Assembly (NCBI GenBank): GCA_903859705.1
Contig: CAIONQ010000123.1
Coordinates: forward strand, 1-59,663
Origin: an uncultured Chthonomonas sp.
Lineage (GTDB): Bacteria > Armatimonadota > Chthonomonadetes > Chthonomonadales > Chthonomonadaceae
Length of the DNA stretch: 59,663 bases
Direction: 5' to 3'
Positions 1 to 35,197 of the stretch are shown in pieces. The number at the start of each line of letters is the position of its first letter. The first letter of the stretch is position 1. A program made the position numbers and the translations under genes. A model generated the notes under the pieces. The model searched no databases, had not been told where the DNA came from, and was given only the letters and a program-made list of their open reading frames with translations.

Positions 1-1
1 C

Positions 2-136
2 GATCGGGAGCTTGTGGAAGAACTTATGCCAGATCTATTGGCGATAGCCTCAACGGTTCCACTCGACGCTGATGAGGAGTACCTGCAGGACACAGTAGTG
101 AGATTACTTGAGGCACATAACAACTTTGACTCTTAA
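2..136 (+). CDS. C-terminal 44 residues of an unidentified protein (5' truncated)
   Basis: An open frame enters from the left edge and ends at TAA (134-136). The 44 visible residues are acidic and leucine-rich (ending LLEAHNNFDS), which suits the helical end of a small soluble protein. No family can be assigned. It lies just before Rhs debris, so an immunity-type or polymorphic-toxin-associated protein is possible, but nothing in the residues shows this. The start lies outside the window. Confidence 0.5.
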   Translation, partial: DRELVEELMPDLLAIASTVPLDADEEYLQDTVVRLLEAHNNFDS

Positions 137-187
137 TAGTGAGATTCCCCCTACATCGCTGGTGGCTATTTTAGGACGCTGCGCTCT

Positions 188-275
188 GCGAGGAAGGCGA
201 GGAGAGTTAGGCCGCTTCGCTCAGTTAGGAAGCCGAGGACGCTTCGCTTAGCGAGGGAAGCGAGGATGCCTCGCG
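188..275 (+). repeat. GCGAGG-rich repeat, copy 1
   Basis: The purine-rich stretch has repeated GCGAGGAAG and GAAGCGAGG words around AGTTAGG. The same composition and word order appears as its reverse complement at 35198-35229, where it follows a CGCAATTTCTACCGCG repeat unit. I read it as a dispersed non-coding repeat. No protein is supported here. Confidence 0.6.
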
Positions 276-280
276 ACCTC

Positions 281-333
281 ATGCATTCAGCACTGAAAGT
301 GCGTTATACGATAGCGAAGGGCGATAGCCCTGG
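281..333 (-). repeat. TTCGCTATCGTATA element, inverted left arm of the first pair
   Basis: Read on the minus strand this is a ~53-bp unit: a hairpin (GGGC-TATC-GCCC), an invariant TTCGCTATCGTATA linker, then a second hairpin (GCACT-TTC-AGTGC). The plus-strand partner at 423-476 has the same linker with both stems changed by compensating substitutions. The two copies face each other across 89 bp and would also pair with each other. Two further copies are at 3835-3881 and 3912-3965, and a single one at 35017-35070. Confidence 0.75.
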
Positions 334-422
334 TAATATCGAGCACAAACCTGCCCCCCTGTTGTTGCCGCGCCGTTGGCGCGGCAACAGGATGGAGATT
401 GGTTTTTTTGGACATCTAATTT

Positions 423-476
423 CCAGCCCTATCGGGCTTCGCTGTCGTATACCGCCCCGTTGGGGCTGAAATGCGC
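423..476 (+). repeat. TTCGCTATCGTATA element, right arm of the first pair
   Basis: Hairpin AGCCC-TATC-GGGCT (425-438), linker TTCGCTGTCGTATA, then hairpin GCCCC-GTT-GGGGC (454-466). Compared with its partner at 281-333, the stem bases differ but remain fully paired. That is the signature of selection on a folded RNA or cruciform rather than on a protein. The surrounding 137-656 holds no credible gene. Confidence 0.75.
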
Positions 477-656
477 GCCTACCGGCGCGGAGTTGGGCAT
501 TAAAGATTGGGGATTGATGCCGAGTGCGCCTGCGGCAATTTGTTGCACGCTTCTCATGCTGGGCGTGAGCCCGGAGCACAGCGGCAGGGAACTACCCTAC
601 CGCTGCAACTTCGCTCGCGCTCGGCGGCCCAGCAGGCTTACTGTGCCACTTTGTGA

Positions 657-3834: not shown

Positions 3835-3881
3835 GCATCCAGCGCTGAAGGGCGCGTTATACGATAGCGAAGGGCAACAGG
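3835..3881 (-). repeat. TTCGCTATCGTATA element, inverted left arm of the second pair
   Basis: Minus-strand copy with the same TTCGCTATCGTATA linker and a GCGCC/GGCGC-type stem (3842-3855) that closes with one G-U wobble. The outer GGGC-TATC-GCCC hairpin is eroded here (TGTTGCCC). Its partner lies 30 bp downstream, repeating the head-to-head arrangement at 281-476. Confidence 0.7.
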
Positions 3882-3911
3882 AGGGGGGATTATAGGCGTA
3901 TGCGTTGGTTT

Positions 3912-3965
3912 CCAGCCCTTGCGGGCTTCGCTATCGTATACCGCCCCGTTGGGGCTTCCGCGTCA
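3912..3965 (+). repeat. TTCGCTATCGTATA element, right arm of the second pair
   Basis: Hairpin AGCCC-TTGC-GGGCT (3914-3927), linker TTCGCTATCGTATA, hairpin GCCCC-GTT-GGGGC (3943-3955). It is nearly identical to the 423-476 copy except in the first loop. Confidence 0.75.
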
Positions 3966-34542: not shown

Positions 34543-35016
34543 TAGTGGGCAATTCCACACGGATGGTATTGTGATGCATGGCAGTATTCGCTTTGAACAT
34601 CGATGAACCTACGGTTGGACACAGAAAGTGGAACGAGCTTAAGTTTATGCTGGCTGCCGTATGTGTTTGCTCGTGCCATGGTGATGTTTGGGCGTTAGCG
34701 CCCACTTTTCCGTCACTCGGGGTGCGGCAGCCAATGCGGATGCGTGCCCGCCGGATGGGTGGTGGGTGCTGAACCAGGTGGGTTAACTGTCGTATGCAAT
34801 GTCTCGCATTGTGCTTGGTAAGATAACCTATGCCGCCCTTTCATGGCTCAGAATTTTTTCTGTAACGCCTGGTTCCAGCTACACAGAAGAGGTAGCTTAT
34901 GAAAAGCAATTTCTACCGCGCTGCTCTTTCTTTCACGCGAAAGCCACACGTTCTGCACAGTTAGGTAACCTATGCCGGCCCTACAGGCCTCAGGATTCTT
35001 TTTATCTCTTTGTATA

Positions 35017-35070
35017 CCAGCCCTATCGGACTTCGCTATCCTATACCGCCCTTTCAGCGCTGAAATGCCG
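35017..35070 (+). repeat. TTCGCTATCGTATA element, single copy
   Basis: CCAGCCCTATCGGACTTCGC, then TATCCTATACCGCC and a TTTCAGCGCTGAAA palindrome. It is a plus-strand member of the 423-476 family without an inverted partner. The second stem is again different but self-complementary. Confidence 0.65.
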
Positions 35071-35197
35071 CCTCCGGATGGGTGTGTGGAAGAATATTAC
35101 GAGCAATTTCTACCGTGCTGCGCTTGAGAGAGCAGGCGGGGCCGGGAGTCGGCAAGGATGTTTATGAAACGCAATTTCTACCGCGCCACGCTTGCTC

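Follow-up and report, generated by a model that had tools for sequence, protein, structure and literature searches.

Double-hairpin repeats in a Chthonomonas genome as probable ends of non-autonomous elements linked to Y1 transposases of subclass 1.2

Canonical REP/BIME sequences, as described by Di Nocera et al. (2013, PMC3733652), are single palindromes of 20-40 bp with a GTAG or CGTC tag. For some Y1 genes the same paper mentions terminal inverted repeats (TIRs) that are 'double palindromic'. In the classification of Quentin et al. (2018, PMC6006769), 20 of the 26 TIRYTs belong to subclass 2.1, six to subclasses 2.2 and 2.5 and none to subclass 1.2. The signature of TnpAY1 subclass 1.2 is Y---Q--HH, and 'no' REP-like or IS end structures are listed for it in that classification.

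The window, i.e. the whole 59,663-nt stretch of Chthonomonas DNA analysed, holds five copies of an arm of about 51 nt, arranged as two head-to-head pairs and one single copy (Table 1). On sequence evidence, we consider it probable that these arms bound a REPIN/MITE-like element, non-autonomous and once moved by a Y1 HUH (IS200-like) transposase with the motif Y---Q--HH, belonging to TnpAY1 subclass 1.2.

Arm architecture in the window

Each arm consists of a hairpin H1 (5-bp stem, 4-nt loop), a conserved unpaired linker of about 15 nt (GCTANCNTAT), a hairpin H2 (5-bp stem, 3-nt loop) and a short tail. Read from H1 to H2, its sequence is CC-AGCCC-TATC-GGGCT-TCGCTATCGTATACC-GCCCC-GTT-GGGGC-TGAAATG. 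The original prediction had placed arms at 281-333 and 423-476, a second pair at 3835-3965 and a single copy at 35017, and all were recovered at the positions given in Table 1. It had also described paired changes in both stems (GGGC-TATC-GCCC versus GCCC-TATC-GGGC, and GCACT-TTC-AGTGC versus GCCCC-GTT-GGGGC), which we observe as well. The second pair and the single copy are likewise present, but with the stem defects listed in the table. Contrary to the original claim, the linker is not fixed: it is exact in three of the five window copies, with one change each at 438-451 and 35032-35045, and it varies at two or three sites.

In the first element, the 5' ends of the arms (H1) point inward and H2 outward. 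Spacers of the window pairs measure 25–101 bp and contain no gene. The palindrome within the first spacer includes an H2-half match at 366-382 (13.8 bits).

Two other repeats were seen in this context. The palindrome TTGCCGCGCC-GTT/GTA-GGCGCGGCAA is itself dispersed (window 361-390, L033:1589-1609 and L049:1589-1609) and looks like an extended H2 half-unit. The second, likewise dispersed, is built around AGCAATTTCTACCGCGCT(T/A)CGC; it is present several times in the window (34886-34930, 35095-35125 and 35160-35195) and also adjoins many arms; at L060, L085, L087 and L091 it is joined to the arm linker, replacing H1.

Table 1. Arms, their parts and inverted arm pairs in the window (contig C123) and on other contigs of the same genome.
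Feature	Position	Strand	Score or basis
Whole first element (left arm -, spacer, right arm +)	268..473	.	Homology with the C76 pair; same arrangement in five strong pairs
Left arm, pair 1, type AGGGC-TATC-GCCCT	283..333	-	72.2 bits, E=1.6e-16
Parts of left arm, pair 1	H1 318-331, linker 303-317, H2 290-302 (GCACT-TTC-AGTGC)	-	
Central palindrome GTTGTTGCCGCGCC-GTT-GGCGCGGCAACA in pair-1 spacer	361..390	.	Core scores as H2 half-unit
Right arm, pair 1, type AGCCC-TATC-GGGCT	423..473	+	75.4 bits, E=2.2e-17
Parts of right arm, pair 1	H1 425-438, linker 439-453, H2 454-466 (GCCCC-GTT-GGGGC)	+	
Left arm, pair 2 (H1 stem lost; linker and H2 retained)	3835..3886	-	49.3 bits
Right arm, pair 2	3912..3962	+	66.7 bits
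Parts of right arm, pair 2	H1 3914-3927, linker 3928-3942, H2 3943-3955	+	
Single arm, one mismatch per stem	35017..35067	+	69.7 bits
Strong pairs, contig C123 (window)	283-/423+ and 3835-/3912+		
Strong pair, contig C54	39527-/39666+		
Strong pair, contig C108	2010-/2151+		
Strong pair, contig C76	67543-/67695+		

Copies, covariation and inverted pairs in the window genome

A covariance model (R1) was built from 18 window-genome copies (alignment A2) and searched against the 6.24-Mb window genome, as the original prediction had proposed; it retrieved 40 copies at E<1e-4, far more than chance would give, and 47 when the threshold was E<1. The linker pattern alone, at two mismatches, remained near background (26/27 forward/reverse matches versus 19/16 for the control). 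An arm variant at L084:1493-1543 and 1843-1893 has a 7-bp H1 (CTGGGCC/GGCCCAG) and the linker GGCTACCCTAT, and is nearer to copies of the congeneric genome G001 (L061). A plasmid similarity search gave no match.

The proposed selection on a fold was borne out, with covariation exceeding both shuffles and register-slid controls. Among 54 distinct rows, paired cells amount to 88.2% versus 73.9% after shuffling, and the covariation is 0.267 versus 0.105±0.011. In the alignment that spans several phyla (62 distinct rows), the paired share is 92.7%, double changes occur at eight of the ten pairs, and covariation reaches 0.307 versus 0.101±0.010 when shuffled, falling to 0.093 or less when the register is slid. 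Stem changes thus stay paired beyond chance, and the refuting outcome set by the original prediction, changes paired no more often than expected, did not occur. Most weight goes to the register-slid controls and to the rows spanning phyla, since shuffling leaves relatedness in place and the model itself had served to fit the alignment. The covarying arms come from genomes G000 and G001 and from Ignavibacteria and Verrucomicrobia. The sequence of H1 is nearly free, yet its pairing is kept; the conserved parts of the arm are the linker core GCTA..C.TAT and H2.

Five strong inverted pairs were found in the window genome, with H1 inward in all of them, together with two weaker pairs (C67 and C68) and single arms spread over many contigs. 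In each pair, one end is of the AGGGC/GCCCT type (H1 being lost in one) and the other of the AGCCC/GGGCT type, as though the element had separate left and right end types. Window positions 1-589 match contig C54 in a single block at 88% identity, and 164-589 are common to C108. Since this duplicated block spans them, three of the five strong pairs (window 283-/423+, C54 and C108) were copied with their surroundings and are not independent insertions. Homology between the C76 pair and the window is confined to 268-468 (82.6%), the element itself. Window positions 1-589 and 819-966 are duplicated on C54 and C108 (~87-90%), and the duplicated block includes an upstream gene end and an RHS-like fragment (GRFISRDPI), which suggests a repeated RHS-tip cassette region.

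Arms and Y1 transposase genes in other genomes

Y1 genes were present in 23 of the 41 genomes comprising the window genome and its relatives, most of them with Y---Q--HH. In the phylum sample, 18 of the 26 Y---Q--HH genes have flanking inverted repeats that outscore every one of 200 shuffles, and many of these repeats contain two hairpins. IS200-type genes of that sample had no significant flanking inverted repeats save L072, whose motif is near-1.2. At Y1 locus L067 of the congeneric G001, the best R1 match was the right inverted repeat of the gene (1943-1982, E=0.005, filters off).

When named genomes were scanned with a pattern, matches came from Verrucomicrobia (Prosthecobacter, Luteolibacter) and from Ignavibacteria MAGs. 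In G043, an Ignavibacteria genome, R1 (trained on window-genome copies only) detected 27 copies. This genome encodes a Y1 protein at L160:1405-1857(-) with the motifs ADHIH, WQDG and YIENQHEHHK, and its gene is flanked by six arms, three on each side, inverted and with H1 inward. A further model, R2, found matches in 35 of 291 genomes of the phylum to which the window belongs and in 28 of 294 genomes of the class of G043.

For nine '-/+' arm pairs 540–650 bp apart, picked from lists of best matches, an enclosed Y1 gene of the Y---Q--HH type was predicted beforehand, and a Y1 gene was found in nine out of nine (L227-L235). A tenth '-/+' locus, L238, also encloses a Y1 gene; the '+/-' pairs L236 and L237 enclose none. 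All ten test loci were absent from the training sets of R2 and of the protein profile. Y---Q--HH is present in all ten enclosed genes but L235, whose frame is truncated ahead of the Tyr motif. Pfam PF01797 was confirmed in nine of the ten test proteins (L233 was not submitted) and in that of L160. A C-terminal tail that closes with ER(Y/F)-x-W-(D/E) is common to the proteins at the test loci. Several test loci carry closely related proteins, and because those of the G043 class resemble each other, independent events number fewer than ten. The closest solved protein to the arm-associated Y1 is ISHp608 TnpA (PDB 2a6m, E=3e-6), with HUH and the catalytic Tyr/Gln conserved. At L160 (1383-1402 and 1885-1908), and also at L230, L231, L232 and L234, H2-only half-units lie next to the transposase gene, separating it from the full arms on one side or on both.

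Long-tail Y1 genes were defined as profile matches at E<=1e-40, a cut-off set after the gap in scores was visible. They occur in 27 of the 35 arm-bearing genomes of the phylum versus 20 of the 256 others (Fisher p=1.4e-18, phylogeny uncorrected) and, by genus, in 17/20 versus 9/136 (p=1.3e-13, likewise uncorrected). Eight arm-bearing genomes lack such a gene, the window genome and its congener included; neither of the two Y1 proteins of the congener has the C-terminal tail seen in the best-associated group. In the window genome (assembly 95.7% complete), no match to Y1_Tnp or to the long-tail profile was found, and a congeneric Y1 protein had no match better than E=0.41. The tyrosine-transposase link of the original prediction thus stands in other genomes, but in the window genome no such gene is detectable, and for this genome the putative link between enzyme and arms is drawn entirely from relatives.

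The window pairs 283-/423+ and 3835-/3912+ have the same orientation as the arms around the Y1 genes at L160, L227-L235 and L238. The window copies share these ends but enclose no gene; they are thus non-autonomous, and probably orphaned from a subclass-1.2 transposase. Each arm would fold as single-stranded DNA, and the transposase may recognise both hairpins and the unpaired linker, cutting and joining at or near the latter, so that the unit between two arms would move as ssDNA. Judging from IS608 TnpA and TnpAREP as analogues, the most likely functional form of the arms is an ssDNA hairpin, with the linker serving as a cleavage or guide region. The window genome may have lost the enzyme, or the gene may sit in an assembly gap, and the copies would then be decaying relics; that many copies are degraded agrees with such a loss. 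More generally, we lean towards the view that subclass 1.2 has its own double-hairpin ends across phyla, recognised through two hairpins and an unpaired linker, and that two-ended non-autonomous units spread by it may outlast the loss of the enzyme.

Alternative explanations and comparison with known systems

Part of the REP/BIME resemblance proposed originally holds, as the arms are multi-copy, dispersed, mostly extragenic and often in inverted pairs, and flank a Y1-family gene in other genomes. However, it is very unlikely that they are canonical REP/BIME, that is, tagged single palindromes with class-2 RAYTs (Y---NP) as their transposases. The window arm is a 51-nt two-hairpin structure with a conserved linker, it contains neither GTAG/CTAC nor CGTC/GACG, and the proteins associated with arms elsewhere have Y---Q--HH and score far under the NCBIfam REP_Tyr_transpos cut-off. 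We give just as little credence to a transcribed cis-regulatory or small RNA (a terminator or a stabiliser of mRNA 3' ends) retained for the structure of the RNA. Strong stem covariation, short loops and the fact that 19 of 30 copies are not covered by a frame of at least 130 aa would agree with an RNA. Nevertheless, G-U pairs (8) make up just 1.5% of standard pairs and are outnumbered by C-A mismatches (24), the arm has no match in Rfam 15 at the gathering score, and a terminator/promoter scan detected nothing at the arms. The rarity of G-U, together with an arrangement in which the arms are inverted repeats flanking an ssDNA-type Y1 transposase gene, favours DNA over RNA and speaks against the 'mobile RNA' first suggested.

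Another explanation, unlikely but less so than the previous two, is that the arms spread with larger duplications or via another transposase, their likeness to Y1-associated repeats reflecting shared ancestry only, with nothing mobile now. The block shared with C54, the lack of a Y1 gene in the genome and the divergence of the copies are in line with it. Against it stand the C76 pair, homologous within the element only, and the single arms on many contigs.

As probable ends of a Y1-mobilised element, the arms are of a known kind, namely REP-like hairpin repeats with a Y1 transposase. The open-licence papers searched contain no description of repeats for TnpAY1 subclass 1.2, and the double-hairpin-plus-linker arm and its link to this subclass are absent from them. 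The arms provide a candidate DNA substrate for a subclass listed without end structures (Quentin et al. 2018, PMC6006769), making direct binding and cleavage assays possible, and R2 allows annotation of a repeat family, absent from Rfam, in at least three bacterial groups.

REPtrons and REPINs (REP doublets with RAYT/TnpAREP; PMC3116915, PMC6006769) share with the arms dispersed hairpin repeats, inverted pairs and a flanked Y1 HUH gene; the arms differ by their double hairpin and conserved linker, by the lack of a GTAG foot in the window copies and by the transposase motif Y---Q--HH in place of Y---NP. TIRtrons, according to Di Nocera et al. (2013, PMC3733652), also have a Y1 gene between long inverted repeats, some of them repeated in the genome; their 'double palindromic' TIRs may overlap with the arm family, although TIRYTs fall in subclasses 2.1, 2.2 and 2.5 and the arm-flanked Y1 in 1.2. 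In IS200/IS605, whose ISHp608 TnpA is the closest solved relative with HUH and Tyr/Gln, a subclass-1.1 TnpA acts with non-inverted ends bearing subterminal hairpins, whereas the window element has no TnpA and its ends are inverted. Compared with the subclass-1.2 element defined here by its arms, the window copies do not have the autonomous form enclosing a Y1 gene, but their arms fit the H1-linker-H2 model and their pairs are inverted with H1 inward.
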